Assembly: GCA_030156255.1 (NCBI GenBank)
Contig: JASGMV010000021.1
Location: forward strand, 1 to 56,978
Source: Desulfovibrionales bacterium
GTDB taxonomy: Bacteria; Desulfobacterota; Desulfovibrionia; Desulfovibrionales; Desulfovibrionaceae
DNA: 56,978 nucleotides
Direction: 5' to 3'
Part shown: positions 4,647 to 30,090 of the stretch, piece after piece
How positions within the stretch are numbered: position 1 is the stretch's first letter
How the letters are laid out: each line of letters begins with the position of its first letter
The notes under the pieces: model-generated
Told to the model about the DNA's origin: nothing
The model's database searches: none
What the model saw: the letters and a program-made list of their open reading frames with translations, nothing else
Made by a program: the position numbers and the translations under genes

Positions 4647-4676
4647 ATAATAACGATATGCACAAAGTGTTGGCAA
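4647..4676 (-). promoter_or_regulatory. Sigma70-type promoter of the abi gene
   Basis: On the minus strand TTGCCA (4676-4671) and TATTAT (4652-4647) are separated by 18 bases, about 35 bases upstream of the abi ATG. The region is AT-rich like the gene. Confidence 0.45.
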
Positions 4677-4806
4677 GAACTGAAATGTGAAGCGTCATAT
4701 AAAGCCAACCTTCACTCAACATCCACACCCCGACGAATCGTCAGGGTACCCCCCCCCGCAACTCACCGATCTTGTCCGAAATGATGTTCAAGACATGTGC
4801 GCGTTG

Positions 4807-5139: not shown

Positions 5140-5392
5140 AGGTCACCTCGATAATTTTGATTCGCTTGTCGCGCACTTCCCAGACCACCACGTAGGTGGG
5201 GCTCCCTTTTTGCAAGTGGCAGTGATAGGCGTCCCTCTTGCCCTTCAGCTTGCCATAGTTGCTCATGCTTGGCTGGACAGGGCCGGACTCGCTCATAAGC
5301 AACACAAGAGCCAGAAGCCTCTGGCGAGCCGTTTTAGGCAGCGAGCCAGCACCCTGACGGGCTCGCTTCGTGAACTCCACTGTCCAGACCAT
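5108..5392 (-). CDS. RelE/HigB-type toxin (Gp49-like)
   Basis: 94 residues, basic, with the compact beta-rich pattern of the RelE/ParE/HigB superfamily: VEFTKRARQGAGSLPK at the N-terminus, YGKLKGKRDAYHCHLQKG in the centre and VVVWEVRDKRIKIIEVTYVG at the C-terminus. Members are ribosome-dependent mRNA endonucleases or gyrase inhibitors; which applies here is not visible. The promoter's predicted +1 falls on or within one base of the ATG, so the message may be leaderless, and no Shine-Dalgarno can be seen. It is followed by, and overlaps, the HigA-like antitoxin. Confidence 0.8.
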   Translation of the reverse strand: MVWTVEFTKRARQGAGSLPKTARQRLLALVLLMSESGPVQPSMSNYGKLKGKRDAYHCHLQKGSPTYVVVWEVRDKRIKIIEVTYVGTHEKAPY

Positions 5393-5397
5393 AATAC

Positions 5398-5426
5398 ATG
5401 ATAGTCAGCTGATGACTATCCGTCAA
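5398..5426 (-). promoter_or_regulatory. Promoter and operator of the toxin-antitoxin operon
   Basis: On the minus strand TTGACG (5426-5421) and TATCAT (5403-5398) are separated by exactly 17 bases. A perfect 8-bp inverted repeat (gatagtca/tgactatc, 5400-5407 and 5413-5420) fills the spacer and enters the -10 box. Occupancy by the HTH antitoxin would block RNA polymerase, the usual autoregulation of such modules. The -10 box ends only five bases before the toxin ATG. Confidence 0.75.
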
Positions 5427-5495
5427 GGGGAGACAAACGACCTTCTTTGGACAGGCTGCTCAAGCGGGGGGAGCGCACCCAACGCCCAAAAACCA

Positions 5496-6668: not shown

Positions 6669-6959
6669 AGCGCATCGCCTCCATGCTCCATCGTCTTGAG
6701 ATTAGTGGACTCTTTACTCCGGAGCAAGCCCGGTTCGTATCCCGCTTCTTGGCGTTTTCGCGACATTTCAAAAAATTGTCGTCTTTTTACAACACATTGA
6801 CCAATCGGCTTTAGTCTAACATCTTGAAATAACAAATAAAACAAAAAGCTCTCGGCAGGAATACTTTTTGCTTGCATTACGTCAACGATTGCGGGAGGTT
6901 CCGGCCGACTCGCCGTGCAGGCGACTGACGCCGTCATGTTCGACGAAAAAAACAGCAGG
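6669..6959. other. AT-rich divergent intergenic region
   Basis: The region between the minus-strand aldolase and the plus-strand genes is AT-rich, especially about 6760-6870, and should contain both promoters. A TTGACC hexamer lies near 6799 but its -10 partner is weak. No RNA gene or repeat was seen. Confidence 0.4.
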
Positions 6960-7166
6960 ATGCGTTTGATGGAATCCCAATCCGCGACCATACGTTTCCC
7001 CCGACTGAAGCAACTGTCCCGTTTGGAAAAGGCCCTGCGCCGTCTCGGACTGCGGGCCAAGGACTTGTACTCCACGGCCCTGCCCCGCGCCGACGCGCCG
7101 GCCACCTCGGAGGAGGACGACCGCTCGGAGCCCGGAGTGCGGTCCTGCAGGCATCGCTACCGCTAG
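6960..7166 (+). CDS. Possible small basic protein, or displaced N-terminus of the next gene
   Basis: A 68-residue frame beginning MRLMESQ, with alternative starts at 6936 and 6969 and an AGG just before the ATG at 6960. It is rich in Arg and Leu, with an amphipathic stretch RLKQLSRLEKALRRLGLRAK and an acidic tail. The next gene (7216) is in another frame with a GTG start and a low-complexity beginning, so this could be its original N-terminus after a frameshift. Independent function unsupported. Confidence 0.3.
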   Translation: MRLMESQSATIRFPRLKQLSRLEKALRRLGLRAKDLYSTALPRADAPATSEEDDRSEPGVRSCRHRYR

Positions 7167-7215
7167 GCTGACGTCGTCTCGTTCGAGGCGAGAGCCGGGG
7201 GAAGGCGCTTTTCCG

Positions 7216-8559
7216 GTGGATGGACTGTTGCGGCATGAGAGTGCTCTAACGGCTCCGGCGACCGAACCGTTTGACGCGGCCGCGGAAAACGGGGATGCTG
7301 GAACGCGCAATCTCGCGCCCGATAGTTACGCACTTGACGCAAGCGCCATGGAAACTCCCGTTCCCTACGAGCAGACCGCCTACCGCGACGCACTTCCGCC
7401 GGAAATTGCGGTGAAGCGGCTCGCGCAGCCCGGCCCGCCGCGACTCAACGTCATCGTCCCCCACCTCTATCGGGAGCACGCCTTCGGAGGCGTTCTTTCC
7501 GCCCTGGAGCTTGGCGGAGAGCTGGCCGGCGGATATCCCGAAGTCCGGTTCGTCTCCATGGCCGAAGCGCCGCCGGAGGAGCAGCGGATCGATCTGGCCG
7601 GGCTGGTCCGGGGCGAGGCCCGCAACAACGTTTCCATCGCCTCCACGGCGAACGCCCAACCGCTGTCCTGCCATGCGCGGGACATCCTGTTCTGCACCTA
7701 CTGGCCTTCGGTTTTGGCCTGGCGCCGCCAAGCGGCGCTCATGGAGCAGGCGGGGCTCGCTCCGAATCCCTTCTACTATTTTATTCAGGACTGGGAGCCC
7801 GGTTTCTATCCCCTGGGCGCCAAATACATGGCCGCCGAATCCACCTACGGGCACGGGGATTTCTGCTTCGCGATCTTCAACTCCAGGGAGCTGGCCCGAT
7901 TCTTCCAGCAAAGGAAATACCTCCTGCCCAAGGCCGCGGTCATCGCGCCGTCGCTCAACCCGGTGCTGCACAACGTGCTCAAGGCATGGGGCTTCACGCT
8001 GCCTCCCAAGCCGACGGAGAACGTCTCCATTCTAGTCTACGGCAGGCCCCGGCAACCCCGGAACTGCTTTCCGGTGATCCTGGAAGGCCTGGCCCGCTGG
8101 CTGAAGGAAGCGCCGCCGCAAGAGCGGCGAAATCTCCGCCTGCTCAGCGCCGGAGTGGCCCACGAGTCCATCGAACTGGCGCCGGGCGCCGTGCTGCGCA
8201 GCCTGGGCAAATTATCCCTGCCGGACTACGCCGCGGCGCTGGCCCAAAGCCACGTGGGCGTCTCGCTGATGGCCTCGCCCCACCCTTCCTATCCGCCGCT
8301 GGAGATGGCGGCGTTCGGGCTGGAGGTCGTCACCAACAACTTCCCCGGCAAGGACCTCTCGCAAAGCCACCCCCGCATCCGATCCATACCGGCGCCGGAG
8401 CCCGAGGCCCTGGCGCGGGCCGTGGGCCAAGCCGTGGAGTCGGCCAGAGCCAGGGCCGGACGGCCGGAGCAGGCGCAGCTCCCCGACGCCATGAGCCCGG
8501 ACCCGTGGAAAGCGAACATCCAAAAGGCCAGGATTCCCAGGTTGTCGCCCACGAGTTGA
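7216..8559 (+). CDS. Glycosyltransferase, GT4-like (WsaF-type)
   Basis: 447 residues. The core starts near residue 75 (PRLNVIVPHLYREHAFGG) and has a two-domain Rossmann pattern. The segment FIQDWEPGFYPLGAKYMAAE resembles the WsaF-type rhamnosyltransferase family, and the C-terminal domain has SLMASPHPSYPPLEMAAFG, the acidic E-x-A loop that contacts the nucleotide sugar in GT-B enzymes. Likely cytoplasmic, transferring a sugar to a surface polysaccharide; donor and acceptor unknown. The GTG start is weakly supported; an in-frame ATG near 7348 is an alternative. Residues 1-60 look non-conserved. No polysaccharide cluster surrounds it. Confidence 0.68.
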   Translation: MDGLLRHESALTAPATEPFDAAAENGDAGTRNLAPDSYALDASAMETPVPYEQTAYRDALPPEIAVKRLAQPGPPRLNVIVPHLYREHAFGGVLSALELGGELAGGYPEVRFVSMAEAPPEEQRIDLAGLVRGEARNNVSIASTANAQPLSCHARDILFCTYWPSVLAWRRQAALMEQAGLAPNPFYYFIQDWEPGFYPLGAKYMAAESTYGHGDFCFAIFNSRELARFFQQRKYLLPKAAVIAPSLNPVLHNVLKAWGFTLPPKPTENVSILVYGRPRQPRNCFPVILEGLARWLKEAPPQERRNLRLLSAGVAHESIELAPGAVLRSLGKLSLPDYAAALAQSHVGVSLMASPHPSYPPLEMAAFGLEVVTNNFPGKDLSQSHPRIRSIPAPEPEALARAVGQAVESARARAGRPEQAQLPDAMSPDPWKANIQKARIPRLSPTS

Positions 8560-8667
8560 GTCCCTGCGGGAAATCGGCGAGGGGCGTGTAAAATTTCCGG
8601 AATGAAGGCTTGACAGCCAGGGGCGGTTATGGCTATTGACTCTTTTCTCGCTTGAGGAGGAGACAAC

Positions 8668-8979
8668 ATGTACGCAATTATCGAGACTGGCGGCAAGCAA
8701 TATCGGGTCGAGGAAGGACGCTCCCTGAAGGTCGAGCTCCTGGAGGCCGAGGCCGGGGCCGCCGTGGATTTGGACAAGGTGCTGATGGTCAAGACCGTCG
8801 ACGGCGTCAAGCTCGGTGCTCCTTATATTGAAGGCGCCAAAATTTCCTGCGAGGTTCTGGAGCACGGCCGCGACAAGAAAGTTGTCGTCTTCCGCAAGCG
8901 CCGCCGCAAAGATTTCCAAAAGAAGCAAGGGCACCGTCAACACTTCACCCGGATCATGGTCAAATCGATCCAGGCTTAA
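8668..8979 (+). CDS. rplU: 50S ribosomal protein L21
   Basis: 103 residues, full length for L21, with the family's start MYAIIETGGKQYRVEEG and the basic C-terminal segment FRKRRRKDFQKKQGHRQHFT that binds 23S rRNA. A strong GAGGAGG ribosome binding site precedes the ATG. rpmA follows after 25 bases with its own GGAG, the usual L21-L27 operon. The 108 bases upstream (8560-8667) hold the leader; no clear hairpin was recognised there. The GTPase gene obg, often third in this operon, is absent here. Confidence 0.97.
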   Translation: MYAIIETGGKQYRVEEGRSLKVELLEAEAGAAVDLDKVLMVKTVDGVKLGAPYIEGAKISCEVLEHGRDKKVVVFRKRRRKDFQKKQGHRQHFTRIMVKSIQA

Positions 8980-11508: not shown

Positions 11509-12840
11509 ATGAGTATTCCAGGCATCAGAGACAGAAAAATAGAGGATGTCGGTCTTCAAGCGGGCGTGGACCGCTTGACCGAGGACCAGATTCAAAAAAC
11601 GATCAAAAAGGTGCTCAAAGGCGAAACCGGCGCCAAGCTCAAGCTTTACGCCGAGACCTGCATGCGTTGCGGGCTTTGCGCCGAAGGGTGCCACTACTAC
11701 ATGTCCCACGACAAGGACCCCAGCTACGCCCCGGTCAGCAAGGTCCGCCAAACCATGTGGGAAATCCTGCGCCACAACGGCAAGGTAAGCCCCGAGTTCA
11801 TTTACGGCTGCGCCCAGATCGCCTACACCGAATGCAACATGTGTAAGCGGTGCGCGCACTATTGCCCGCTGGGCATCGACATCGGATACATCATCTCCGT
11901 GGTCCGGCGCATCTGCCACAAACTCGGTGTGGTGCCTCTCTACATCCAGGACACCGCCCACAGCCACTCCGCCACCATGAACCAGATGTGGGTCAAGGAC
12001 GACGAGTGGCCGGACGCCCTGCAATGGCAGGAGGACGAAGCCCGCGACGAGATTCCCAACCTGCGTATCCCGTTGGAGGTCGAAGGCGCGGATATCTTCT
12101 ATTCGGTCATCGGACCCGAGCCCAAATTCCGCACCCAGCTCATCTACCAGGCCGCGGTGCTCATGAACGAGACCGGGCAGAGCTGGACCATGCCCGCCAC
12201 CCCGGGCTGGGACAACTCGGACATGGCCATGTACACCGGCGACTACGAAGTCATGGGCCGCATCAAGCGCGCCCACTTCGACACCGCCATGCGCCTCAAG
12301 GTCAAACGCATCGTGATGGGCGAATGCGGCCACGCCTTCCGCTCCATCTACGACATGGGCAACCGCTGGCTCGGCTGGAAGATGCATCCCGTCCGGGTCA
12401 TGCACGCCATCGAGTTCTACCACGAGCTGTTGGAGAAAGGGCAGCTCAAGATCGCCAAGACCTTCGACACCCCGGTTACCTTGCACGACCCGTGCAACAT
12501 CATCCGCGGCCGGGGGCTCATGGACCAGGCGCGCGAGGTGGTCAAGGCCTTCTGCCCCAACTTCGTGGAAATGACCCCCAACCGCGAGCACAACTATTGC
12601 TGCTGCGCGGGCGGCGGCGTCATCAACTGCGGGCCTCCGTTCAAGAACGTCCGCGTCGAGGGCAACAAAGTCAAAGCCGAGCAGCTCATACGGACCGGGG
12701 TCCCGGTTGTCATCGCCCCGTGCCACAACTGCCACGGCGGGCTGGAGGACATCATCCACGCCTACAAGACGGGACAAGAGCTCAAGTTCCTCATCGATAT
12801 CATTTACGAATGCATGGAGAAGCCCGACGCCGTTGAATAA
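11509..12840 (+). CDS. tmcB: TmcB, HdrD-like iron-sulfur subunit
   Basis: 443 residues, cytoplasmic. Two [4Fe-4S] ferredoxin motifs are visible, CMRCGLCAEGC at 51-61 and CNMCKRCAHYC near 107-117. The C-terminal half carries CCG-domain Cys motifs (HDPCN; YCCCAGGGV; APCHNCHGG), which in HdrB/HdrD ligate a non-cubane [4Fe-4S] cluster used in disulfide chemistry. In Tmc and DsrK relatives this points to a cytoplasmic thiol/disulfide partner such as DsrC; that link is inference here. It follows tmcC by 16 bases with an AAGGAG site. Confidence 0.92.
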   Translation: MSIPGIRDRKIEDVGLQAGVDRLTEDQIQKTIKKVLKGETGAKLKLYAETCMRCGLCAEGCHYYMSHDKDPSYAPVSKVRQTMWEILRHNGKVSPEFIYGCAQIAYTECNMCKRCAHYCPLGIDIGYIISVVRRICHKLGVVPLYIQDTAHSHSATMNQMWVKDDEWPDALQWQEDEARDEIPNLRIPLEVEGADIFYSVIGPEPKFRTQLIYQAAVLMNETGQSWTMPATPGWDNSDMAMYTGDYEVMGRIKRAHFDTAMRLKVKRIVMGECGHAFRSIYDMGNRWLGWKMHPVRVMHAIEFYHELLEKGQLKIAKTFDTPVTLHDPCNIIRGRGLMDQAREVVKAFCPNFVEMTPNREHNYCCCAGGGVINCGPPFKNVRVEGNKVKAEQLIRTGVPVVIAPCHNCHGGLEDIIHAYKTGQELKFLIDIIYECMEKPDAVE

Positions 12841-12869
12841 GGCGCGAACCAGCATCAAGGAGCATTAGG

Positions 12870-13250
12870 ATGAAAAAACAACTGAGCGTCATACTCCTGC
12901 TGGCCGCGGCGGTGCTGCTTTACCTTGCTCCGGCCTACTCCCAGGAGGACATGACCCAACTGCTTGACCCCGCGTTCACGACGCATCAACGTCCCGCCGC
13001 CGTGTTCAACCACGACGGGCATAACGAAAAAGCGGAAATCGAGGATTGCAGCGTTTGCCACCACGTGTACGAAGGCGAACGCAAAGTCATGGACGACTCG
13101 TCCGAAGGCACGCCCTGTTCCGAGTGCCACGCGGTAGACGCCGAAGAGGGCACGCCCCTGCGCATGGCCTACCACCGGATGTGCACCGACTGCCACACCG
13201 CCAAGGGCAAAGGCCCCGTGACCTGCGGCGAGTGCCACGTCGACAAGTAG
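12870..13250 (+). CDS. tmcA: TmcA, periplasmic type II tetraheme cytochrome c3
   Basis: 126 residues with a cleavable signal peptide ending near AYS (residue 24). Four c-type haem motifs are visible: CSVCH (60-64), CSECH (83-87), CTDCH (105-109) and CGECH (119-123), giving a tetraheme cytochrome c3. The mature protein has many Asp/Glu, as expected for the acidic type II c3 that takes electrons from type I c3 and periplasmic hydrogenase and passes them to TmcC. It is the last gene of the operon, after tmcB, preceded by AAGGAG and followed by a strong terminator. Confidence 0.95.
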   Translation: MKKQLSVILLLAAAVLLYLAPAYSQEDMTQLLDPAFTTHQRPAAVFNHDGHNEKAEIEDCSVCHHVYEGERKVMDDSSEGTPCSECHAVDAEEGTPLRMAYHRMCTDCHTAKGKGPVTCGECHVDK

Positions 13251-13275
13251 CGACCTCCCACCGCGAACGAACAAA

Positions 13276-13309
13276 ACGGCCGGCGAAGATTCGCCGGCCG
13301 TTTTTTTTT
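13276..13309 (+). terminator. Intrinsic terminator of the tmc operon
   Basis: An 11-bp stem (acggccggcga/tcgccggccgt) with a four-base loop is followed by nine T residues. Confidence 0.96.
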
Positions 13310-13618
13310 GGCGCGTTCAACGCGCACAGCTCCTCCGCCGGACCTAAAGAAATGCTGATGCGATCGAAGGCGCCGGTGTAACATAAGCTTTGGGCAACAA
13401 AATTACTCCATTCTATGGATGCATTTCCGGATCGTTACGCCCCTGTGGCAATGTAATCTAAACACCTTGTGTTCCGATTATCTTTCCAGTAAGGCTCTTT
13501 CCTTGACAGCTATACTCTGACGCTTGTTCATCGGGGCTCTGGCGACAAGGCCGCACGGAGGCCGTCGGGCAGGATGAGTTTCAACACGCATTAATCTTTT
13601 CTTCTCTGGGAGGGCTCC
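13310..13618 (+). promoter_or_regulatory. Upstream region of the envelope lipoprotein cluster
   Basis: This gap must contain the promoter for the eight-gene cluster that begins at 13619. A TTGACA hexamer lies at about 13504, but the hexamer 17 bases on (gttcat) is a poor -10. TATACT nearby lacks a matching -35. The last bases carry GGGAGGG, the ribosome binding site for the first gene. No repeat or RNA gene was seen. Confidence 0.4.
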
Positions 13619-14206
13619 ATGAAACGTTGGGTGCTCGTCGCGCTGCTAGGGCTGGCCCTATGCGGATGCGCCGCAGGAAAAACGAGTCGCGTCGATCTGG
13701 ATGCGGAATTAGTGGATGACGCTTACGCGACTTCCGTACAAGACTATCGGACCGTGGCTGACCAAATGGCTAGGTCGCTGCTGCAGCTTTCTTTCATCCA
13801 CAAGGCCGAACACCCACCAACCATCGCCTTTATATCGGTGGAGAATCGATCCACCCGGTATATCGACACCAAAGCCTTCCAGGAAAAAATCCGCACCCTG
13901 CTCATGAAAAACTGCCGGGGCAAGATCTACTTCCTGGACCGTGACGCTCTCGCAGCCATCCTCAAGGAGCGCAAGATCAAGTCCAAGGGGCAGGCCACGG
14001 CGTCCGCGAAATCGCAAGGGAAAATCCTCGGGGCCGACTATTTCCTGACCGGCTCCATCAGCTCCATCAACAGAGTCGGCGGCACGGGAAGCACGGAATA
14101 CCTTCGCTACTCGTTCCGTCTCACGGACGCGGACAACTCCCTGATCGTCTGGGAGGACGAATACGAGACCCGCTACCACAAGCAAAAAGCCTGGTCCGAC
14201 CAGTAA
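13619..14206 (+). CDS. LpoB-like lipoprotein (penicillin-binding protein activator family)
   Basis: 195 residues with a lipoprotein signal (LCGC, Cys17). The body, from PPTIAFISVENRSTRYIDTKAF through the GADYFLTGSIS segment to VWEDEYE, matches the LpoB/CsgG-like alpha/beta fold. In enterobacteria LpoB is an outer-membrane lipoprotein that stimulates the peptidoglycan synthase PBP1b. No PBP gene is nearby, so here it may serve another envelope complex; the CsgG-like gene at 17080 has a related fold. First gene of the cluster, with GGGAGGG before the ATG. Confidence 0.78.
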   Translation: MKRWVLVALLGLALCGCAAGKTSRVDLDAELVDDAYATSVQDYRTVADQMARSLLQLSFIHKAEHPPTIAFISVENRSTRYIDTKAFQEKIRTLLMKNCRGKIYFLDRDALAAILKERKIKSKGQATASAKSQGKILGADYFLTGSISSINRVGGTGSTEYLRYSFRLTDADNSLIVWEDEYETRYHKQKAWSDQ

Positions 14207-14224
14207 CCTAGCGGAGGCATAGCC

Positions 14225-16129
14225 ATGCGGCCATCAAGCCGTTCCCTTGCGTTCATCCTGTGCTTGGTTCTGGGGGCCGTTGTATCCACGGCCTGCGTGC
14301 AACCCAAAAGACTCAACCCCGACGACTTCAAAATATCGCAGGCCAGAAAGCCCCTGCCAAACCCCTACGGTGTGCAGGCTGCGATAAACTATGACGATAT
14401 CCCCAACAACAGCAACGCCGTGGCTTACGATCAGAAGCTGGTGGATACGCTGAAAAAAGACGGCTCGCTGTGGCCTGCGCCCCCCCCCTACATCATGCGC
14501 GACGCCGTAGGCTCGGCGGCGGCCCAGGATATTCTGGAGGCCAACAGCCTGTCTTTCTCCCTGCAAGCCCGAAACAAGGACGACCACAGCTTCGTCCTGC
14601 CCCTGCTCAACAGGGCCATGTTGTACATCGACACCGGGGACTACATGCGCGCCTTCAAGCTGTTGCTCACCGCCAAGACGGTCATGGACTCCGTGGAGCA
14701 ATCCGGAGGCGAACTCAGCGCGGAGCAGGGCAAGATATTCAAGGGAGAGTATTACGAGAAATCCCTGGCTTGCTTTTATATGGGCTTTCTCCTCTATTTG
14801 AAGGGCGACTATCAAAACGCCCGAGCCATGTTCATGAGCTCCCTGGAGGTTGACCGCGAAGGCTTGCCCAGCGAAGAGGAAATCCAGGAATACATCGAGG
14901 ACAACGCAAAGGCGTCCACCAAATCCGCGGCGGAGCTTCTGGCGATCTACGAGTCCCTGGGAGACGACAACCGCATCGCCCACTACATGCTGGCGAGGAC
15001 CCTGGTGAAGCTCGACGACCAGGAAAACGCGGAGGTTTCCCTTAAAAAGACCGAACGTTGGAACTCCGTGCCCGAGCATCTGGTGGACAAGGCCTGCGGG
15101 AGCAGCGCGCAACTGACCAAGCTCATGGACCAGCCCCCTCACGGCGAGAACGATCTCGACAAGATGGAAAAAATCGAAAGCGACAATTTGCTGGTCCTCG
15201 TGGAGATGGGGTTCGCGCCGAAGAAAGTCGCCGAGGGCGCCGAAGGCAGCCAAGACTCCTTGGCTCCGAGAAACTATCCGGAGCGCCAAGCCGAGGTCTA
15301 CGTGGACGGACAATTCATCGGCCAAACCTATCCGCTCTTGAGCATGCTGCATCAGGCTGCGGGCTCTCCCCGGAGCATCAAGGACAACGTTCAGACCGGC
15401 AAGGGAGTCGGTAAAACGGCTCTGGTGACGGCGACGAATTTCATTCCCATTTTCGGGGGGTTGATCTCGAGCACCATCAAGGACGCTTGGAGCGTGGTGG
15501 CCGACACCCGCCGCTGGGGCACGGCCCCCGGCGAAATCCAGGTCTTTTCCGGACACGTGACTCCGGGACTGCACACGGTGACCGTGCTCTTCTACGACAG
15601 AGCCGGCAACCCGCTGCCCCACTATGAACAAACCCACTACTACGTTCCCACCAGGAACGGCGGCGATCCCACCGTGCTCATCACCCGCGCTTTGCGCGAC
15701 AGGGGGAACGCCATCAACAGTTTCTATTGCTCGAAAGTTCTTTCCTACGACGCCAAAGGCGAAACGTTGCGGTTCAGGTCCTCCGACCTCATGCCGGAAG
15801 TCGGCGCCAAGCTTTCCGTGATCACCATTGAATTCGACGATCCGACTGTCACCCAACGGTTCATTGACACCGGCTACATCGTCCAGAATCCGTACATAGG
15901 CCCCGACGAAAACGCTCAAAAGCAGCGCATGGCTTCCTCCTTCCCCAACATGCGCATCAAGAAGGTGGCGGTCGCCAAGGTGGTGGACGGCGGGTTAAAC
16001 GCGGACTGCAAGCTGGTCCAGGGACAACTGGAGAAAGGCCAGACCTATTTCGTCACCAGCTACGACTTCCCGTTCAACGACGTCACGGAAGTCTCCAACC
16101 ACTACTTCGTCCGCAAACAGGATCACTAA
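14225..16129 (+). CDS. Large TPR-like lipoprotein, COG3014-like
   Basis: 634 residues with a lipoprotein signal (VSTAC, Cys24). Residues 110-290 contain helical repeats of tetratricopeptide character (NRAMLYIDTGDYMRAFKLL; YMGFLLYLKGDYQNARAMF). Later come NLLVLVEMGFAPKK and a beta-rich C-terminal half. The layout resembles the uncharacterised COG3014 lipoproteins, which occur with LpoB- and YcfL-like genes in some Gammaproteobacteria; that comparison is from memory. A tract of eight C residues lies in the coding region near 14480. It follows the LpoB-like gene by 18 bases. Likely an envelope scaffold. Confidence 0.65.
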   Translation: MRPSSRSLAFILCLVLGAVVSTACVQPKRLNPDDFKISQARKPLPNPYGVQAAINYDDIPNNSNAVAYDQKLVDTLKKDGSLWPAPPPYIMRDAVGSAAAQDILEANSLSFSLQARNKDDHSFVLPLLNRAMLYIDTGDYMRAFKLLLTAKTVMDSVEQSGGELSAEQGKIFKGEYYEKSLACFYMGFLLYLKGDYQNARAMFMSSLEVDREGLPSEEEIQEYIEDNAKASTKSAAELLAIYESLGDDNRIAHYMLARTLVKLDDQENAEVSLKKTERWNSVPEHLVDKACGSSAQLTKLMDQPPHGENDLDKMEKIESDNLLVLVEMGFAPKKVAEGAEGSQDSLAPRNYPERQAEVYVDGQFIGQTYPLLSMLHQAAGSPRSIKDNVQTGKGVGKTALVTATNFIPIFGGLISSTIKDAWSVVADTRRWGTAPGEIQVFSGHVTPGLHTVTVLFYDRAGNPLPHYEQTHYYVPTRNGGDPTVLITRALRDRGNAINSFYCSKVLSYDAKGETLRFRSSDLMPEVGAKLSVITIEFDDPTVTQRFIDTGYIVQNPYIGPDENAQKQRMASSFPNMRIKKVAVAKVVDGGLNADCKLVQGQLEKGQTYFVTSYDFPFNDVTEVSNHYFVRKQDH

Positions 16130-16145
16130 AGCAGGAGCGCACATC

Positions 16146-16598
16146 ATGGACAGACGCCGCTTTATCAATCTTATGGCCGCGGCCGTGGCGTCAAGCGCCG
16201 GCCTGCTCACCGCCTGCGGCAAGCCGACCAAATACCTGGTCAACCCCTATGTGGCGAAAAGCATGACGCCGCCGCCCATCAAATACTGCTTCACCACGGT
16301 CGGCCACGTCCCAGGGGCCCAGCCGTTCATTTTCGGAGGGACCTGCTGCTGCACGCCCACCCAAGAGCTCATGGACCAGTACCACGCCGACGGCTTCCTT
16401 TTGGACATGGAGCTTGAGGACCTTCTCGCCGAATATGAAACAAGAGGCATTGTCCTGAGGCATGAAGGGGGCTGGCAGTGCAATAATCTCTGCAGCTCGG
16501 GGCCGCATCTTGTTTTCGGCGGCCATTGTATGGTTCCCCCCACCATCGGCACCCAAAACTATGAGAACGTCATCACCGGCAAAAAACCCGTGGTGTAG
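16146..16598 (+). CDS. Cys-rich Tat-exported lipoprotein, unknown function
   Basis: 150 residues. The N-terminus MDRRRFINLMAAAVASSAG is a twin-arginine signal and ends in a lipobox (LLTAC, Cys24). The mature part has further Cys at 48, 67-69 (a CCC triplet), 112, 116 and 128, plus His54, His106 and His127. Tat export usually means folding or cofactor loading in the cytoplasm, so a metal or Fe-S site is plausible. I recognise no family. It sits between the COG3014-like and YcfL-like genes with gaps of 16 and 9 bases. Confidence 0.6.
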   Translation: MDRRRFINLMAAAVASSAGLLTACGKPTKYLVNPYVAKSMTPPPIKYCFTTVGHVPGAQPFIFGGTCCCTPTQELMDQYHADGFLLDMELEDLLAEYETRGIVLRHEGGWQCNNLCSSGPHLVFGGHCMVPPTIGTQNYENVITGKKPVV

Positions 16599-16607
16599 GA
16601 GTTCGCC

Positions 16608-17063
16608 ATGAAACCTATCACGCTTCTTCTCATCGTCGCGGCCATGGCCGCCTGCTTCGGCTGCAGCCCGGCCGTGTCCCCCAAGGCGGGCTTCCAATCC
16701 GTGGCCTCGGAACAGGAAAACAAAATCATCTATCTGCGCCGCGACGGATATGTAGGCAGCCAGTACGCCACGCTCAACTACTACCTCAAAGTGGTCAAGC
16801 AATTCTCGAAATACGACGAAAGCGGCCTGTTCCAGGTAGTGGTCGTCTTCAACAACGACCGCTACGAGGAAACCCGCCGCAATCTCAACTGCGACATCCA
16901 GGTCGTGTTTCTGGACGAGGACGGCATAGAACTGGAAAAAACCAACTGGCAGCCGTACATGTTCCCCTCGGGCCAGGACGTAACCATCAAGACGGTCTCT
17001 TTGAGCCCCGACGCCCGGGACTATAAAATCTATGTCCGGGAGCCGCGCGACGCGGACTGGTAA
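16608..17063 (+). CDS. YcfL-like lipoprotein (DUF1425)
   Basis: 151 residues with a lipoprotein signal (MAAC Cys16 or CFGC Cys19). The mature domain is a small immunoglobulin-like beta fold: FQVVVVFNNDRYEETRRNLNC, then QVVFLDEDGIELEKTNWQPY, as in YcfL/DUF1425 proteins. In E. coli ycfL lies next to lpoB, so finding both types here in one cluster is consistent with a shared function at the outer membrane or peptidoglycan. Molecular role unknown. A GGAG site precedes the ATG. Confidence 0.68.
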   Translation: MKPITLLLIVAAMAACFGCSPAVSPKAGFQSVASEQENKIIYLRRDGYVGSQYATLNYYLKVVKQFSKYDESGLFQVVVVFNNDRYEETRRNLNCDIQVVFLDEDGIELEKTNWQPYMFPSGQDVTIKTVSLSPDARDYKIYVREPRDADW

Positions 17064-17079
17064 GCTCCGGAGGTGAGCC

Positions 17080-18105
17080 ATGCCTAGGTTGATCCATTCT
17101 CCATGTTCGGCCGTCCTTCTTTTCGCGGCGGCGTTTTGGATGTTCTTCACGTTGCCCGTCCCGCCGGCGGCGGGCCAAGACCTCATGAACCCCACGGATT
17201 TCGACCACGAAGTTCGTAAGGGCAAAAAAGACCGGTCGCCCCAATACACCGTTCGCGTAGCGCTGATCACCGTAGAGGATACGGAACTGGTGAACAGCCC
17301 GTACGGCAAACACACCGGCGGCGAGGAAATAAAACGCGTGGGCGACGCCAGCGAAACCACCGTGAGCAGCCCCGAACGCTACGACACGCGCCGGGACGCG
17401 GCGGGCTACAGCAAACGCGTGCGGGAGCTCATCACCTACAGGTTGTCCGCCCTGCCCTGCGTCGACCTTGTGGACAGAGAGGACATCAACGCCCTCGTCC
17501 GCGAACAGGAGTTCGCCCAGCGCAGCACATTGGTGGACAAAACGTCTCTCGGCGACGCCGCCGTGCTCATGCCGCAATACCTGGTGAAGGGTTATTTCAC
17601 CTTCAACGAGGTCGCCTGCAAAAACGAACGCACCCCTGAAGAGGAGGCGTGGCTCGGAAACGAGGACAACACCCCTCCGAAAAAGAAGTTGCGGCTGCAG
17701 CTCAAAGTCATTGACGCGCGCACGTCGCAGATCGCCTACGTGGCCTGCGGCGCGGGCAATGGCGTGGAGAGCGCGGTCAAGGCGTCGGTGAAGGATCTGC
17801 AGCAGCATATGGATCTGCTTTTGCCCACCGTACGGGCCATCGCCGTCAGCGGCTCCGGCCCCAAGCAGGAAGTGCGCCTGAACGCCGGGACGGACGCGGG
17901 ACTCGTTCCGGGATTGACGTTCTATCTGGTGCGCCATCAGGGGGACAAACGCTTCATCGACTATGACGACATCGACTATGTGGCCGCCTGCGAGATCGCA
18001 ACCGCGACCCCGGAAAAAGCCCAAGCGAAAATCGTCGAGCTGCTCGGTGAATCGAAACCGCAAAAGGGAGACCTTGTCTTTTTCCACTACCCCGAACAAT
18101 ATTAA
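17080..18105 (+). CDS. CsgG/HfaB-like secretion protein
   Basis: 341 residues with a Sec signal cleaved near PAAG (residue 35) but no lipobox, unlike canonical CsgG. The segment CVDLVDREDINALVREQEFAQRS, then the YLVKGYFTF strand and KLRLQLKVIDARTSQIAY, match the CsgG alpha/beta domain. CsgG forms an outer-membrane export pore for curli and HfaB anchors holdfast. No curlin-like substrate is visible nearby. The missing lipid anchor suggests it is periplasmic or a divergent pore. It lies in the middle of the eight-gene cluster, 16 bases after the YcfL-like gene. Confidence 0.68.
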   Translation: MPRLIHSPCSAVLLFAAAFWMFFTLPVPPAAGQDLMNPTDFDHEVRKGKKDRSPQYTVRVALITVEDTELVNSPYGKHTGGEEIKRVGDASETTVSSPERYDTRRDAAGYSKRVRELITYRLSALPCVDLVDREDINALVREQEFAQRSTLVDKTSLGDAAVLMPQYLVKGYFTFNEVACKNERTPEEEAWLGNEDNTPPKKKLRLQLKVIDARTSQIAYVACGAGNGVESAVKASVKDLQQHMDLLLPTVRAIAVSGSGPKQEVRLNAGTDAGLVPGLTFYLVRHQGDKRFIDYDDIDYVAACEIATATPEKAQAKIVELLGESKPQKGDLVFFHYPEQY

Positions 18106-18129
18106 CGAATTTCAGGACGCAGAACCGCC

Positions 18130-19509
18130 ATGACTTCGCGCAGCCTGGTCCTCGTTTGCCTGTTCACGCTCCTCGTCTCCGGCGGATGCATCCGCCAGAA
18201 ACGCGGCGATGTCTTTGACGGTGTTGTGGAGCAGTTCAACAGCATGTCGTCCCCGTATGAGACGGACGGCTCCACGCTGACGGACCGGCAATGTTTCGAC
18301 AAGGCCCTTCAGGAATTTCAGAACGAGCGGTACCTGGAGGCCCAACGGCTGTTCGCCAACCTGGAAAGCCGGTATCCGTCCAGCGCCCTGGCGCCGGCCG
18401 CCGTCTATTACCAGGGTGAGTGTTTTCGCAAGAAAGCCGTCTGCCCGCAGGCGTTGCGCTACTACGAAGCCCTGGACAAACGCTGGCCGTCCTCGGAATA
18501 CGCGCCGTTGGCCAAGCTCAAGCAGGCCGTGTGCTTCCAGCGCACGGGGCGAAGCAATCTCGCCAACAGCCTGTTCCGCAAAGTCCAGGCGGCCTACCCG
18601 GAAACGAAGTACGCCGCAGCCGCCCAGGCGGGGCTGGACGGCCGGCTGACTCCGGCCGAAACCCTGGCGCCCGACGCAACGGCTCCCGACGCCGCCGAGG
18701 AAAAGGCTCCGGCGTGGACAGCCCCGACCCGCGCGGCAAGTCCGGTTATCCCTCCATCGGCCCAGGCCGCCTGCGCCGCCGCCTACCCCAACCGCTATCT
18801 CATCATCATCGCCAACGGAGCATACAAGCATTACAGCCAACTCAGCTACACAGCCAACGACGCGGCGACCCTGCGGCGCCTCGGCGCCTGCTATATGGGC
18901 GTCCCCGAGCAGAACATCAGCGTCCACCGCGACGTCACCTATGCGGAGTTGAAACGCATCCTTGAAAACATTTCCCGGGAGATCAGCCAGCACGACGCCG
19001 TGGTCTTCGTCTACTACACCGGGCACGGCGCCGAGGACGCCAGGGGAGCGCCATACATCATTCCCGTAGACGCCCAGCTCCTCTCGCAACAAGACCTGGA
19101 GGAAAGCGCCGTCCCCCTCCGGTTTGTCCGGGACAAGCTGGGGAACGTGCAGGCGAGCCGCAAGGTGGTGCTGTGGGACGCCTGCCGGCTGGAGACTCCC
19201 TGGAAGCCCGTCACGGTGCATCTGGCGAAATCCAAGACCCCGGCGGCGGACCAAACCTACGTTTTCTCCTCCGCGTCCGGCCAAGCCAGCAATATCTCCC
19301 GCGACAAACGCCTTTCGGCCTTCGTGAACAGCCTGTGGGAGCTGGCCGCGGCGGGCGCCTCCAACCTGGACGCCGACGGGAGCGGATATGTGGATATCGG
19401 AGAAATGGAGACGGCCCTGACGTTGCGCCTGCGCCGCATTTCCCCCGACGCATCGCAAGCCCTCGAAATCCGCGGCCGTAAAGACACGCCGTTCTTCCCG
19501 GCGCATTAG
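18130..19509 (+). CDS. Lipoprotein with TPR, caspase-like protease and EF-hand
   Basis: 459 residues with a lipoprotein signal (VSGGC, Cys20). Residues 45-165 hold TPR/YbgF-like repeats (ALQEFQNERYLEAQRLF; YYQGECFRKKAV). A Pro/Ala linker leads to a peptidase C14 (caspase/metacaspase-like) domain at 220-400, with the catalytic pair visible as His299 (YYTGHG) and Cys352 (WDACRLE). A complete EF-hand loop follows at 414-425 (DADGSGYVDIGE), suggesting calcium control. Bacterial caspase homologues cleave after basic or acidic residues; the substrate here is unknown. Exported, lipid-anchored members are unusual. The next gene encodes a DUF4384-like protein. Confidence 0.82.
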   Translation: MTSRSLVLVCLFTLLVSGGCIRQKRGDVFDGVVEQFNSMSSPYETDGSTLTDRQCFDKALQEFQNERYLEAQRLFANLESRYPSSALAPAAVYYQGECFRKKAVCPQALRYYEALDKRWPSSEYAPLAKLKQAVCFQRTGRSNLANSLFRKVQAAYPETKYAAAAQAGLDGRLTPAETLAPDATAPDAAEEKAPAWTAPTRAASPVIPPSAQAACAAAYPNRYLIIIANGAYKHYSQLSYTANDAATLRRLGACYMGVPEQNISVHRDVTYAELKRILENISREISQHDAVVFVYYTGHGAEDARGAPYIIPVDAQLLSQQDLEESAVPLRFVRDKLGNVQASRKVVLWDACRLETPWKPVTVHLAKSKTPAADQTYVFSSASGQASNISRDKRLSAFVNSLWELAAAGASNLDADGSGYVDIGEMETALTLRLRRISPDASQALEIRGRKDTPFFPAH

Positions 19510-19516
19510 GCGGAAC

Positions 19517-20362
19517 ATGCGCACGCCCCGTTTCCTCTTCACCCCGGCGTTCGCCCTGGTCGTACTGGCGGCGTGCGTCTGCCTGCCGGGCCGGCTGCAC
19601 AGTGAAGAACCCGCCGGCGTGCGCATCGTGCGCAATGTGACCGCGGAAGGCGCCTGCGTTGTCGCCGGCGTCACGGCGGAGCAGTCGCAACGTTGCGCTC
19701 TGAACCGGGCGCGGGAGCGGATTGTGGAGACGGCGAACGGCGTCAGCGTCACGGCGAGCACTCTGGTCAAAAATCACATCGTCATGATGGACCTGATCAA
19801 AAGCTTCTCGCACGGGCACATCATCAAAGAGCAGGCGCGCTGGCTACCCATCGTCCAACACCAGGACGACCCGGCGACGCCGCCCGTCCCGGAATACAGA
19901 GTGCGTCTCACCGCGGATGTCGCCATACCGGAGCAGCGCGTTCCCCACTTCGCCTTCACCGCCAAACTCAACCGCTACGCCTTCCAGGACGGCGAATCGG
20001 CCCGGCTCACCATCCAAACAGGAAAACAATGCTCCCTGGCCGTCTTCAACTTCGCCTCCGACGACACCGTCACCCGCATCTTTCCCGTGAACGATCAACC
20101 GTTTTTGCTGCAGCCCGGCCAGTCCTTCTCCCTGCCCGACGGCCGATGGATCGAGGCGCTCGACATGCACGTCTTTCCGGGCCATGCTCGCGAGGTGGAA
20201 AGCTTTCTGGCGGTCTGCACCGTGCACAATCCTCAATCCGCCCTCCAAGGGCTCGAAGCGCAAACACCGTACCCCTTCACTGAATTTTATCGACGCTACA
20301 CCGGAATCGCCGGATATTCGGAGGAAATCTTCCTCCCCTACGAGGTGACCGCCCATGACTGA
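19517..20362 (+). CDS. Exported DUF4384-like protein, partner of the caspase lipoprotein
   Basis: 281 residues with an N-terminal export signal; LAAC (Cys20) may be a lipobox. Residues 35-135 (ITVETANGVSV-type region, RARERIVETANGVSV) resemble the N-terminal domain of LPP20/FlgT-like proteins. Residues 150-260 (FTAKLNRYAFQDGESARLTIQTGKQCSLAVFNF, FLLQPGQSFSLPDGRW in shorter pieces) resemble DUF4384, a beta domain frequently linked to caspase-type proteases. It starts 7 bases after the caspase gene. Likely a binding or regulatory partner on the periplasmic side. Confidence 0.6.
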   Translation: MRTPRFLFTPAFALVVLAACVCLPGRLHSEEPAGVRIVRNVTAEGACVVAGVTAEQSQRCALNRARERIVETANGVSVTASTLVKNHIVMMDLIKSFSHGHIIKEQARWLPIVQHQDDPATPPVPEYRVRLTADVAIPEQRVPHFAFTAKLNRYAFQDGESARLTIQTGKQCSLAVFNFASDDTVTRIFPVNDQPFLLQPGQSFSLPDGRWIEALDMHVFPGHAREVESFLAVCTVHNPQSALQGLEAQTPYPFTEFYRRYTGIAGYSEEIFLPYEVTAHD

Positions 20363-20440
20363 GCGCTCCAGCAAAGGCACGGGCGCCGCTCCGGTCGCGT
20401 CGCTGTGTTTTTTTCCCAACCCGCAAGCAAGGAGCTCGAC

Positions 20441-20998
20441 GTGATCAAACGGATCTTGTGCGTTTTGGCGTTCACGCTTTTGACGGCGACAGCGGCCCAC
20501 GCGGATTTTCGCCTCCCCAAAAACGTCGGGGACTTCGTCCTGGGAGACGACATCAGCAACTACACCGAGTTGGTGGACATGGGCTCGCTGACGACGCCGG
20601 CCAACCATCCCTACGCCTCGCAGGTCAAGGTCAAAAACATTCCCGGCGTGAAGTCCGGGTACGTCAGCTTCGGCGACTGCGCCCACCCGGGCCGAATCTT
20701 TCGGATAAAGCTCAAGTACGAGGACGCAAGCGATAAGCTCTTCCACCGGATCATGGCCATTTACACCAACGCATACGGCATGCCGGAAAGCTGGGGCGAC
20801 GTGGAGGAAACGTTCGAAGGCTGGAAATGGAGCCTCAAGGATGACTACGGAAACGAAGTCAACATCATTCTGGAGCGCTATCTCCGAGGAGAGGGCGTAG
20901 AGCCCGGCGTCTCCCTGCGAGCCTATATCCCGAGCTACCGTCAGGCCGAGCGCGAGTGCTGGCTCCGACACGCGAAGGACGCAAAGAAAAAGAAATAG
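20441..20998 (+). CDS. Small secreted protein, unknown function
   Basis: 185 residues from a GTG start preceded by AAGGAG. A Sec signal peptide is cleaved near AHA (about residue 22). The mature part is a mixed alpha/beta domain with two Cys and a lysine-rich C-terminus (HAKDAKKKK). I do not recognise a family. It is the last gene of the envelope cluster, 78 bases after the DUF4384-like gene, followed by a strong hairpin. Confidence 0.6.
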   Translation: MIKRILCVLAFTLLTATAAHADFRLPKNVGDFVLGDDISNYTELVDMGSLTTPANHPYASQVKVKNIPGVKSGYVSFGDCAHPGRIFRIKLKYEDASDKLFHRIMAIYTNAYGMPESWGDVEETFEGWKWSLKDDYGNEVNIILERYLRGEGVEPGVSLRAYIPSYRQAERECWLRHAKDAKKKK

Positions 20999-21005
20999 CG
21001 CCGCG

Positions 21006-21048
21006 CCGAGCGTCAGCGCCGTTGTTTCCCAAAGGCGCTGACGCTCGG
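21006..21048. terminator. Bidirectional terminator between convergent genes
   Basis: A perfect 15-bp stem (ccgagcgtcagcgcc/ggcgctgacgctcgg) with a 13-base loop lies between the plus-strand secreted protein and the minus-strand aldo/keto reductase. T-rich tattttatt follows on the plus side. Confidence 0.85.
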
Positions 21049-21052
21049 TATT

Positions 21053-22045
21053 TTATTGGTCGCTTATCGTTTTGAGCGCCGAGTTCGGATAGCGGTCTCC
21101 GGTATTCGGATAATTGGCGATAACCGCCTCTATCGCCTGGATGTCCCGCTCGTCCAGGGAGACGTCCACGGCTTGCGCGTTCAGTTCAAGATACCGCCTC
21201 CGTTTGGTCCCGGGGATGGGAATCATGTTGTCCCACTTGCACAGCAACCAGGCCAGAGCCAATTGCGCCGTGTTGACGCCCTTGTCGCCGGCCAGAGCGT
21301 CCAGCTCCCGCATCATGGCGAGATTGTTTTTGAGGTGCTCGCCCTGAAAGCGGGGCAATGCGAACCTTGAATCGCCCTCCGGCAGTTGGGACAGGTCGAA
21401 ATTGCTGGTGAACATGCCTCGCCCCAGAGGAGAGAACGGAACCAGAGTGATCCCGAGTTCGTTGATCGTCGGCAGAATTTCCTTTTCCACGTCGCGCGTC
21501 AGCAACGAATATTCGCTCTGCAACGCCGCGATGTCGTGAACGGCGCACGCACGGCGGATGGACTCGGCCGAGGCCTCCGAAAGGCCGAGAAAGCGCACCT
21601 TCCCCTCCCGGACCAGTTCGGCCATGGCGCCGACGCTCTCCTCCACCGGAACCTTCGGGTCGATGCGGTGCAGGTAATAAAGATCGATATAGTCGGTCTC
21701 CAGGCGCTGGAGGCTCAGCTCCACCGCTTGGCGCATCCACTGCGGCGATCCATCCTGTCTGGGATCGAAAAGACCGCCGTTTTCGGGAGAGCGCAACCCG
21801 AATTTCGTGGCCAGAAAAACCTTGTCCCGATTCCCCTTCAGGGCCTTGGCGATGAGCCTTTCATTGGCGCCGTCGCCGTAATAGTCCGCCGTATCCCAGA
21901 AGTTGACGCCGAGCTCCAAAGCCCGTTGCAGGGTCGCCAGGCTTTCCTCGTCATCCCTGCGGCCGTAGCCGTGGGACATCCCCATGCAGCCGAGGCCGAG
22001 AGCCGACACCTCGACCCCGGTTTTCCCAAGTTGTTTGTATTGCAT
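21053..22045 (-). CDS. Aldo/keto reductase
   Basis: 330 residues, full length for the YajO/AKR13-like group of NADPH-dependent reductases of aldehydes and ketones. The TIM-barrel catalytic tetrad is visible: Asp in [10 protein letters not shown], Tyr in the same loop, Lys in LATKFG and His in YYLHRID. The cofactor loop [15 protein letters not shown] is typical for the NADP phosphate. The start at 22045 ([10 protein letters not shown]) is supported by AAGGAG; a longer frame upstream lacks a site. It stands alone between two terminators. Physiological substrate unknown. Confidence 0.92.
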
Positions 22046-26934: not shown

Positions 26935-27996
26935 TCAATCCCCCAAGCCTCTCAGAGGTTCATCGTCCACCCTTAAGTCCGGAGGATCGCTCTCGACTTT
27001 TTCCGAAGCGGGCTCCGGTTCGACTTCTTTCGAAGCGGGTTCCGGCTCCTCCAGTTTATCGCCCGGCTTGCAGCATAACTGATAGAGTGGTTTCCCGCCC
27101 CGGTGGTTGCTCGCGTTGAAATTCTTGATCGCCTCAAGAATCTGTTCCCCTTTTTCCTGCACGGTCCTCTTGCCCCCGTACAGAATCTCCGGCAAACGCT
27201 CCACCTCCCACAATTCCAACGAGGCGGTGGAATTGATGTTCAGCAGAATGATTTCGTAATGGTGCATGTCAATGGAAAGGGGCATCTGGCTGGTAAGCAA
27301 CGCCTTGCGATAGATTCTGGCGGCGTTGCTGTGACACGCCATGAAGCCTTCGGGCTCGGGGTTGCATGCGTCGTCGAAGTAAACGCCGACAATAATGTCC
27401 ATGGACCGTTTGACGCACTCCATGATGGGAACCGGCAGGGAGAAGGAGCCGTCCACCAGCATGCCGCCGTTGAGGGGAAGCGGGGGCATAAACGGATAGT
27501 ACGCTCCGCCCGCGTAGACAGCCTCGGCCAGATCGCCGCTTTCGATCGCAACGTGTTGCCCCGTCAGCAGGTCCGTGGCTGCGATGACGGTCTTCGGTGT
27601 GAGGTCCTCCACGAGCTGGCGATAAAAAATTTTCCGGTAGACCCGGCGCAGCCCGTGAGGCCTCAACAGCCCGGACTGCGCGTTGAAGTTGCCCATGGGC
27701 AGATGCGCGATGTCCATGACTGCGCGGTAGTCCACATCCGTGAAAAATCGACGGTCCACGGCCTTGGTGAACACGCCCTGAATTTCCTTCAGGTTGTAGC
27801 CGGCGCCCCACAAGCCCGCCAACAGAGCGCCGCCTCCCACGGCGGCCACCATATCCACAGGGATGGCGTATCGCTCAAAAAATTCGATCACAGGCAGTGC
27901 GCTAAAGGACTTGATGCCTACGGAGCCAAGCGCCAGGCCGATGCGTGGGCGAGTCTCGTCGTCAGCCATGATCTCCCGGATCGCTCGTTTGTTCAT
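26935..27996 (-). CDS. Patatin-like protein lacking the catalytic serine
   Basis: 353 residues. The overall pattern is that of bacterial patatin-like phospholipases, but the active-site motifs are changed. The oxyanion-hole GGGxxG is GSVGIK (24-29). The nucleophile elbow GxSxG reads GGGAL at 54-58, with Gly in place of Ser. The DG[GA] motif is DGS at 182-184. Lipase activity is therefore unlikely by the known mechanism. The tail (about 315-345) has an imperfect acidic repeat (EPEPASKEVEPEPASEKVE). AGGAGG precedes the ATG. The next gene, a binding protein, begins one base after its stop. Confidence 0.72.
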   Translation of the reverse strand: MNKRAIREIMADDETRPRIGLALGSVGIKSFSALPVIEFFERYAIPVDMVAAVGGGALLAGLWGAGYNLKEIQGVFTKAVDRRFFTDVDYRAVMDIAHLPMGNFNAQSGLLRPHGLRRVYRKIFYRQLVEDLTPKTVIAATDLLTGQHVAIESGDLAEAVYAGGAYYPFMPPLPLNGGMLVDGSFSLPVPIMECVKRSMDIIVGVYFDDACNPEPEGFMACHSNAARIYRKALLTSQMPLSIDMHHYEIILLNINSTASLELWEVERLPEILYGGKRTVQEKGEQILEAIKNFNASNHRGGKPLYQLCCKPGDKLEEPEPASKEVEPEPASEKVESDPPDLRVDDEPLRGLGD

Positions 27997-28260
27997 GAAA
28001 GCGCCTCCTGCTCTTTGTTTTAACAACATATATCGACGGTTATTGCCTGGCAATACACTGAAACAGCACTCCAAAAGCAAAAGAGTTCGACAAGGCAGGC
28101 CCGAAATCGTCCAAAAACGGCTTCCAACCTGCGCCGGTTGTACTTGTCGGGATATCTGATACAGTTCATCCCCCGGATAAAAAAAAATCGCATTTTTACA
28201 AAAGCCGCAAGGCGGCGACCATGTTATGGCGTACAGCATCGATTGAAACAAGGCGCTTTC

Positions 28261-30090
<1,830 letters not shown>

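Follow-up and report, generated by a model that had tools for sequence, protein, structure and literature searches.

A putatively exported caspase within a gene run of two joined modules: a possible envelope proteolysis unit in a Desulfovibrionales bacterium

The 56,978-nucleotide stretch of DNA analysed here (contig JASGMV010000021.1 of assembly GCA_030156255.1, positions 1 to 56,978; hereafter the window) originates from a member of the Desulfovibrionales, probably a sulfate reducer. Its positions 13619-20998 contain eight consecutive open reading frames (ORFs), g1 to g8, which were called from the sequence and are all located on the plus strand. They form an apparently new combination of two older modules, namely a cassette of COG3014-like, YcfL and LpoB proteins (module A) and a caspase/DUF4384 pair (module B). 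It is tentatively proposed that g1-g8 encode an orthocaspase complex that is tethered to the outer membrane (OM), faces the periplasm and uses a repurposed LpoB/YcfL/COG3014-like (plus CsgG-like) scaffold, with g7 as adaptor or substrate. This reading builds on an LpoB-like protein without its known target next to a CpoB-type arm fused to an intact caspase. What is observed comprises the gene set, the export-type N-termini, the flanking hairpins, the domains, the intact catalytic dyad, the two recurrent modules, and the lack of a UB2H domain match in the window's own genome.

Organisation of the gene run and export signals

The first seven genes are tightly packed, with gaps from g1 to g7 of 18, 16, 9, 16, 24, and 7 bases. 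The start of g8 is a GTG at 20441, 78 bases past the end of g7 and preceded by AAGGAG. Two hairpins on the plus strand flank the unit. The upstream one (13273-13304) resembles an intrinsic terminator, with a 14-pair stem followed by a T (U) run, and ends the upstream cytochrome/ferredoxin operon; its folding energy is -27.3 kcal/mol over 13268-13315 (z -4.6 vs shuffles). The unit is closed by a strong terminator-like hairpin (21005-21049) between convergent genes, which has a 16-bp stem with inner pairs, a T-rich tail, and a folding energy of -37.2 kcal/mol (z -6.35 vs shuffles). The consensus terminator scan has a loop limit of 8, and therefore did not pick up this hairpin. Scanning 12800-21300 revealed no plus-strand terminator within g1-g8 and no promoter match from the upstream hairpin to g1. 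Two plus-strand promoter-like matches lie inside g1 and g4, and the total number of matches is at chance level. The gap between g7 and g8 folds no better than shuffled sequences (z +0.88). GC content is unremarkable.

All eight proteins start with a hydrophobic, export-type stretch, as judged by reading their N-termini. A candidate lipidated Cys is present in six of them: g1 (LCGC), g2 (STAC), g3 (LTAC), g4 (MAAC), g6 (SGGC), and g7 (LAAC), with the lipoboxes of g2 and g6 being weak. In g3, RRRF precedes the least hydrophobic h-region of the set, a Tat-like arrangement. The N-termini of g5 and g8 are candidates for Sec/SPI-like signals only. The first-pass annotation had described eight plus-strand genes with export signals in a row, which is borne out by the ORFs, the N-termini, and the two hairpins. 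Its gaps of 7-24 bases across the first seven genes agree with the coordinates, and its five or six lipoboxes (one Tat) and two or three Sec signals correspond to the six candidates, with g3 Tat-like, and two Sec-type N-termini found here. In Escherichia coli, an Asp after the lipidated Cys retains a lipoprotein in the inner membrane. This Asp occurs in none of the six candidates, so that under the E. coli rule nothing would keep them at the inner membrane.

The caspase lipoprotein g6 and the DUF4384 protein g7

Pfam cut-offs are passed by the LpoB, DUF1425/YcfL, and caspase domains of the unit, while CsgG (g5) and DUF4384 (g7) are just under. The lipoprotein g6 (18130-19509, plus strand) consists of tetratricopeptide repeats (TPRs, residues ~53-169) and a caspase domain (residues 223-411; PF00656, 8.3e-18, 65.4 bits), which is the sole PF00656 match in its genome. 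The catalytic dyad His299/Cys352 is invariant in eight out of eight aligned caspases, the window's included. In analogous caspases, basic P1 specificity goes with an Asp two residues ahead of the catalytic Cys. By this analogy, Asp350 of g6 is expected to confer basic P1 specificity. The TPR part reaches 74 bits against TIGR02795 (1.7e-19), under the equivalog cut-off of 90.1, and among structures it matches CpoB (PDB 6g5s, 4e-7) and YbgF (2xev, 5e-6). Two other loci in the same genome pass the YbgF equivalog cut-off; thus, g6 is not the CpoB of this genome.

The protein g7 (19517-20362, plus strand, 281 amino acids) combines an N-terminal FlgT_N-like domain with a DUF4384 match of 25.7 bits (cut-off 27). 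The DUF4384 cut-off is passed by relatives of g7 in two other loci, L080 and L081 (L and G numbers are our handles for loci and genomes). Furthermore, a profile of the g7 family can be aligned along both domains to a protein carrying DUF4384 and a sub-threshold FlgT_N (hhalign E 1.1e-10, probability 97). An AlphaFold 2 model of g7 (pLDDT 78.7) shows an Ig-like C-terminal sandwich and an alpha/beta N-terminal domain, part of which has low confidence. The fold search with this model tested mostly the Ig-like C-terminal half. Its best match, RbmA (Z 9.0), is a common sandwich, and the absence of FlgT and LPP20 among the matches listed excludes nothing. None of the eight proteins matched a FlgT or LPP20 model of Pfam/NCBIfam at E up to 1.

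The cassette proteins g1 to g5 and the last gene

The LpoB-like lipoprotein g1 (13619-14206, plus strand, 195 amino acids) matches PF13036 with 2.1e-22 and 80 bits (cut-off 22.3), and a profile of relatives built without the window with 2.5e-31. It lies under the NCBIfam LpoB equivalog cut-off (TIGR02722, 68.7 bits vs 110.55). Alignment with E. coli LpoB indicates a short linker between the lipobox and the fold. Part of g1 also matches Pfam CsgG. The DUF1425/YcfL lipoprotein g4 (16608-17063, plus strand, 151 amino acids) is assigned through PF07233 (3.4e-10, 40.1 bits, cut-off 28.3) and matches the profile of its relatives, built without the window, with 7.2e-9.

A candidate scaffold is the TPR lipoprotein g2 (14225-16129, plus strand, 634 amino acids; TPR_12, 1.5e-7), which matches a profile of cassette relatives built without the window with 5.2e-8. 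Its label, COG3014, is taken over from the first-pass annotation. The CsgG-like, putatively periplasmic g5 (17080-18105, plus strand, 341 amino acids) is less securely placed. It reaches 19.8 bits against PF03783 (5.4e-4, cut-off 20.8) and has no lipobox candidate at its N-terminus. Its hhalign alignment with the CsgG-like cassette proteins looks suggestive on inspection, although the statistics are weak (E 0.0084, probability 4.8%), and it does not match a hidden Markov model of the same relatives. A single-sequence structure model of g5 is too low in confidence for use (pLDDT 35.2). CsgG channels are characterised by an N-terminal lipidated Cys, transmembrane hairpins, and an oligomeric barrel.

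Two genes of the run are orphans without a match in Pfam/NCBIfam. The Tat-type lipoprotein g3 (16146-16598, plus strand, 150 amino acids), recognised by its sequence features, has seven Cys residues beyond that of the lipobox and a repeated FGG(T/H)C motif (FIFGGTCCCTPT and LVFGGHCMVPPT), a pattern that may serve metal binding. In 341 phylum genomes, g3 was found only in its own genome, apart from one weak match with two stops. The second orphan is the secreted-type protein g8 (20441-20998, plus strand, 185 amino acids). It has no match in plasmids or viral contigs, the range of that search, with whole genomes lying outside it. Plasmid searches with g2 and g3 and a viral-contig scan with g3 were likewise empty.

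Two recurrent modules

In E. coli, ycfL adjoins lpoB. A DUF1425 search of 297 phylum genomes revealed 19 with a match, the window's own included, and the loci of the other 18 were all examined. The order COG3014-like, YcfL, LpoB on one strand is present in 17 of them, and the remaining locus contains the COG3014-like and YcfL proteins only. A CsgG-like protein adjoins the cassette in 5/18 and was recognised as Pfam CsgG in the three that were scanned (L033, L041, and L047), in L047 together with FlgT_C. In these assignments, DUF1425 is identified by family search and the other proteins by Pfam for a sample and by profiles from these same loci, which are circular for them. In the window, all three families are likewise encoded on a single strand. 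It differs from the phylum cassette in that LpoB comes first, g3 lies between the COG3014-like protein and YcfL, the CsgG-like protein follows, g2 and g5 are strongly diverged, and a caspase arm has been added.

Some cassette loci have features of their own. In L035 (8314-9594), two LpoB-family genes, one of them checked with Pfam, stand in tandem behind the COG3014-like and YcfL genes. The cassette of L034 is followed by Phage_holin_3_6-type and PEMT-type proteins (7236-8565), and genes for a sigma-70 family protein, a response regulator, and CheR run convergently towards it (4-6348). Look-alike ORF starts follow the cassette in L042, L044, and L045.

The second module was found through g7, which has matches in 26/247 genomes (25 besides its own) at 35 places outside its own genome. 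At 14 of the 16 places examined, the stretch contains a gene that matches g6 in its caspase part, and in nine it is a same-strand neighbour according to the ORF map. A contig search with g7 yielded 13 loci, seven of which have such a gene. They stem from metagenome-assembled genomes titled Nitrospirae/Nitrospirota, Deltaproteobacteria, Syntrophaceae, Proteobacteria, and others, and in several cases the match is at or close to the end of the stretch. Four places are contained in both counts, since L080/L099, L081/L101, L082/L104, and L083/L108 are identical, judging by contig and gene lengths. Domain scans confirmed caspase domains beside g7 relatives. The arms of these caspases vary, with TPRs in L087, L107, and L108, ankyrin repeats in L093, and CARDB in L080, L082, L094, L100, L103, and L106. 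According to PMC6426788, one group of caspase homologues from alphaproteobacteria carries DUF4384 at its C-terminus.

Some of these loci carry further genes that separate or flank the caspase and DUF4384 genes, encoding reverse transcriptase (RVT_1; L080, L100), bAvd (L100, L103), and FGE-sulfatase-fold proteins (L080, L103). The stretches concerned are 5265-12366 in L080 (3787-10888 in L099), 7377-14138 in L100, and 9932-14474 in L103. They are probably diversity-generating retroelements linked to caspase/DUF4384 pairs; in cyanobacteria, caspase-type variable proteins of such elements are known (PMC7517822).

The UB2H domain as docking partner of LpoB

UB2H is the domain of the penicillin-binding protein (PBP) PBP1B that is bound by LpoB, with CpoB in the neighbouring cleft, according to PMC4458516. 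It was searched for in 41 genomes: 18 with DUF1425, 20 without (ten of them from the window's family), G190, G196, and the window's own. A match was counted if it exceeded the cut-off and spanned at least 74 of 85 positions. By this rule, UB2H is present in 13/18 genomes with DUF1425 vs 1/20 without, in G190 but not in G196. If every match over the cut-off is counted, the ratio is 13/18 vs 3/20. Left out of the count were sub-cut-off or partial matches, mostly in ORFs of 1110-1240 amino acids; those reaching the cut-off lie in G127 and G130, both controls, and in G194 (one match). The set-aside type cross-matches UvrB_inter, and we take these matches to be probable Mfd/UvrB-type domains. For the first of these two counts, Fisher p values are 2.2e-5 by genome, 5.2e-4 by genus (9/11 vs 1/13), and 0.028 by family (4/6 vs 1/11), calculated without a tree and with a non-random set of controls.

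Transglycosylase and transpeptidase domains were found in 4/4 UB2H ORFs scanned, identifying them as class A PBPs. One of the genomes counted, G185, has no LpoB in its locus. Based on the co-occurrence, the cassette is probably a part of PBP1B regulation within the phylum. The window's own genome, at 99.28% completeness, yielded no UB2H match among seven candidates scored, and ten genomes of the same family contain no full-length UB2H and one partial, sub-threshold match. Thus, the LpoB-like g1 is probably without its classical target. The window may illustrate the outcome of a missing synthase combined with an added protease.

Proposed mechanism and alternative explanations

In the proposed mechanism, the TPR lipoprotein g2, the LpoB/CsgG-like g1 and g5, and the YcfL protein g4 would assemble into a platform on the inner side of the OM. 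The CpoB-like TPR arm of g6 would dock the caspase domain onto this platform, comparable to CpoB beside LpoB in E. coli. There, PMC4458516 models CpoB next to LpoB on PBP1B and proposes that it prevents hyper-activation of PBP1B. Either the platform or the Cys-rich Tat lipoprotein g3 might sense the state of the envelope or a redox state and thereby license the protease, and g7, with its FlgT_N-like and DUF4384 domains, could be an adaptor, an inhibitor, or the first substrate of the caspase. A putative protease in the divisome has a precedent in Anabaena, where HetF, a CHAT-domain protein, is a divisome member through FtsI (PMC8406250). Localisation, complex, trigger, substrate, and proteolysis are inferred here, and complex formation and the trigger are the weakest steps. 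A more far-reaching scenario is doubtful: a lineage without UB2H-PBP1B would have acquired the cassette, and what had been a switch for a cell-wall synthase would have become the receptor platform of a lipid-anchored caspase with a CpoB-like arm, giving an OM checkpoint by regulated periplasmic proteolysis, with g3 as metal or redox sensor.

Several observations weigh against the proposed complex. The full set was found in one genome only, so modules A and B are not co-conserved as a unit; among the loci examined, they are joined only in the window. G247 contains both modules on separate contigs (L042 and L083), as does G205 with a cassette (L047) and another caspase/DUF4384 set (L095). The nearest parallel, L081, has LpoB and COG3014-like genes beside DUF4384, and no caspase in the stretch. 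Both g2 and g5 are strongly diverged, the CsgG likeness of g5 is weak, and g3 and g8 are without relatives in the searches made. As the arms of other caspases vary and TPRs are not special to g6, the arm of g6 may serve as a generic adaptor, and its likeness to CpoB may be incidental. The sigma-70, response-regulator, and CheR neighbours in L034 leave room for a motor-related role. The OM-proximal set with a proteolytic arm on one gene run, as the first-pass annotation had it, fits the evidence but is not new as a whole, being composed of two recurrent modules. The accompanying claim that no described system has this set is upheld insofar as no other genome with it was found, and has to be narrowed to two conserved modules plus poorly conserved extras.

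It is rather unlikely, though a serious alternative, that two unrelated modules lie side by side and that the caspase/DUF4384 pair functions by itself, for example in conflict or in death under stress. The unlinked modules of G247 and G205 speak for this, as does the single place (L081/L101) with an LpoB or COG3014-like match in all stretches of g7 relatives (16 + 13). In addition, g1-g8 are absent behind the cytochrome operon in 10/10 relatives inspected, and in a PADLOC scan g6 matches one generic caspase model (5.7e-7), with no model for g1-g5, g7, and g8 at E up to 0.01. However, g1-g7 are tightly packed with no internal terminator found, the TPR arm of g6 is most similar to CpoB, which is known to be placed next to LpoB, and L081 unites LpoB/COG3014-like genes with a g7 relative in another genome. 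A regular LpoB-type cassette for peptidoglycan-synthase activation, in which g1 stimulates a class A PBP, the TPR part of g6 tunes it, and the caspase is a regulatory extra, is less probable still. In its favour, g1 passes the Pfam LpoB cut-off, the cassette and UB2H co-occur in the phylum (13/18 vs 1/20), and all four scanned ORFs have both synthase domains. Against it, g1 misses the NCBIfam equivalog cut-off, and no UB2H was found in the own genome or, at full length, in the ten of its family.

The remaining two explanations are improbable. A CsgG-like export or assembly apparatus, with g3 and/or g8 as cargo processed by the caspase, would account for the CsgG match in g5 and partly in g1 and for two small orphans in the unit, one of them Cys-rich. 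It is at odds with the missing lipobox candidate and the sub-threshold CsgG score of g5, and no curli-type subunit was matched by Pfam among the eight proteins. Marginally lower in our estimate is a basal-ring accessory of a flagellum or another trans-envelope motor, similar to FlgT/FlgP. This idea draws on the FlgT_N-like architecture of g7, FlgT_C with CsgG in the L047 cassette, FlgT_N with LPP20 in L081, and the chemotaxis/flagellar-type run of L034, the one of 18 cassette loci at which flagellar neighbours were scanned. The unit itself has no flagellar gene, and g5 and g7 have no FlgT or LPP20 model match.

Relation to known systems

The unit resembles the ycfL-lpoB and LpoB-PBP1B-CpoB-Tol systems of E. 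coli in joining the YcfL and LpoB families and in having a CpoB-like TPR part in the operon. In contrast to E. coli, no UB2H was found, the TPR part is fused to a caspase, and COG3014-like, CsgG-like, and DUF4384 proteins as well as two orphans are added. With orthocaspases and HetF, g6 shares the caspase fold, and with orthocaspases the His-Cys dyad; HetF is a putative protease in the divisome (PMC8406250). Unlike HetF, which acts via FtsI in a cyanobacterium, g6 has a lipoprotein-type signal and a CpoB-like TPR part, and the accessible text of PMC8406250 does not mention an LpoB operon. Similarity to FlgT (H-ring) and LPP20/FlgP is given by the FlgT_N-like region of g7 and the CsgG-like core of g5. 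CsgG resembles the middle domain of FlgT, a single protein from a flagellar locus that unites the domains N, M, and C. In the window, the parts are split over two genes in a unit without flagellar genes.

Titles and abstract starts in the open part of PubMed Central contain no description that we found of the g1-g8 set or of the COG3014-like/YcfL/LpoB(/CsgG-like) cassette, nor do they assign a function to YcfL or to COG3014-like proteins as far as we found. Literature on exported bacterial caspases is sparse there. The unit is a possible cell-envelope proteolysis machine, and the neighbourhood together with the co-occurrence of cassette and UB2H-PBP1B provides a testable handle on YcfL and COG3014-like proteins.

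Distribution and origin

Conservation of the gene set within the order, a check suggested by the first-pass annotation, was not found: g2 was detected in 1/120 genomes of the order, which is its own. In 345 phylum genomes, g2 has four other matches (G190, G198, G348, and G368), and in 247, g5 has one weak match besides its own genome. G190 contains a real relative of g2, as LpoB adjoins the COG3014-like gene there (L007). G198, G348, and G368 were rejected, since the TPR part alone matches and none of the other genes of g1-g8 has a match there that was judged a relative. By sequence reading, L008 is an M48-type peptidase with TPRs. A g6 match in L009 (7e-7) was dismissed; it is confined to the TPR part of g6 and lies 8 kb away. 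A contig search with g2 confirmed no relative, and the 13 loci from the contig search with g7 contain no YcfL or CsgG-like match. The L081 stretch (383-8970) encodes, on one strand and with an exported appearance, LptD, FlgT_N/DUF2066, GNA1162-like, LpoB, COG3014-like, LPP20, and DUF4384 proteins, apparently a further outer-membrane set.

The upstream cytochrome c3/ferredoxin operon, presumably tmc, is syntenic in 10/10 relatives inspected (41 other genomes match, some weakly), and none of g1-g8 follows it in these ten. With the operon kept without the cluster behind it and g2 and g5 found almost nowhere else, this lineage has probably gained or assembled the unit recently. Horizontal arrival is likely, not proven. 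The aldo/keto-reductase and methylase genes downstream in the window have no match in the stretches of those relatives, so no empty site can be defined. Further along the window, a gene for a patatin-like phospholipase is located on the minus strand (26935-28659).

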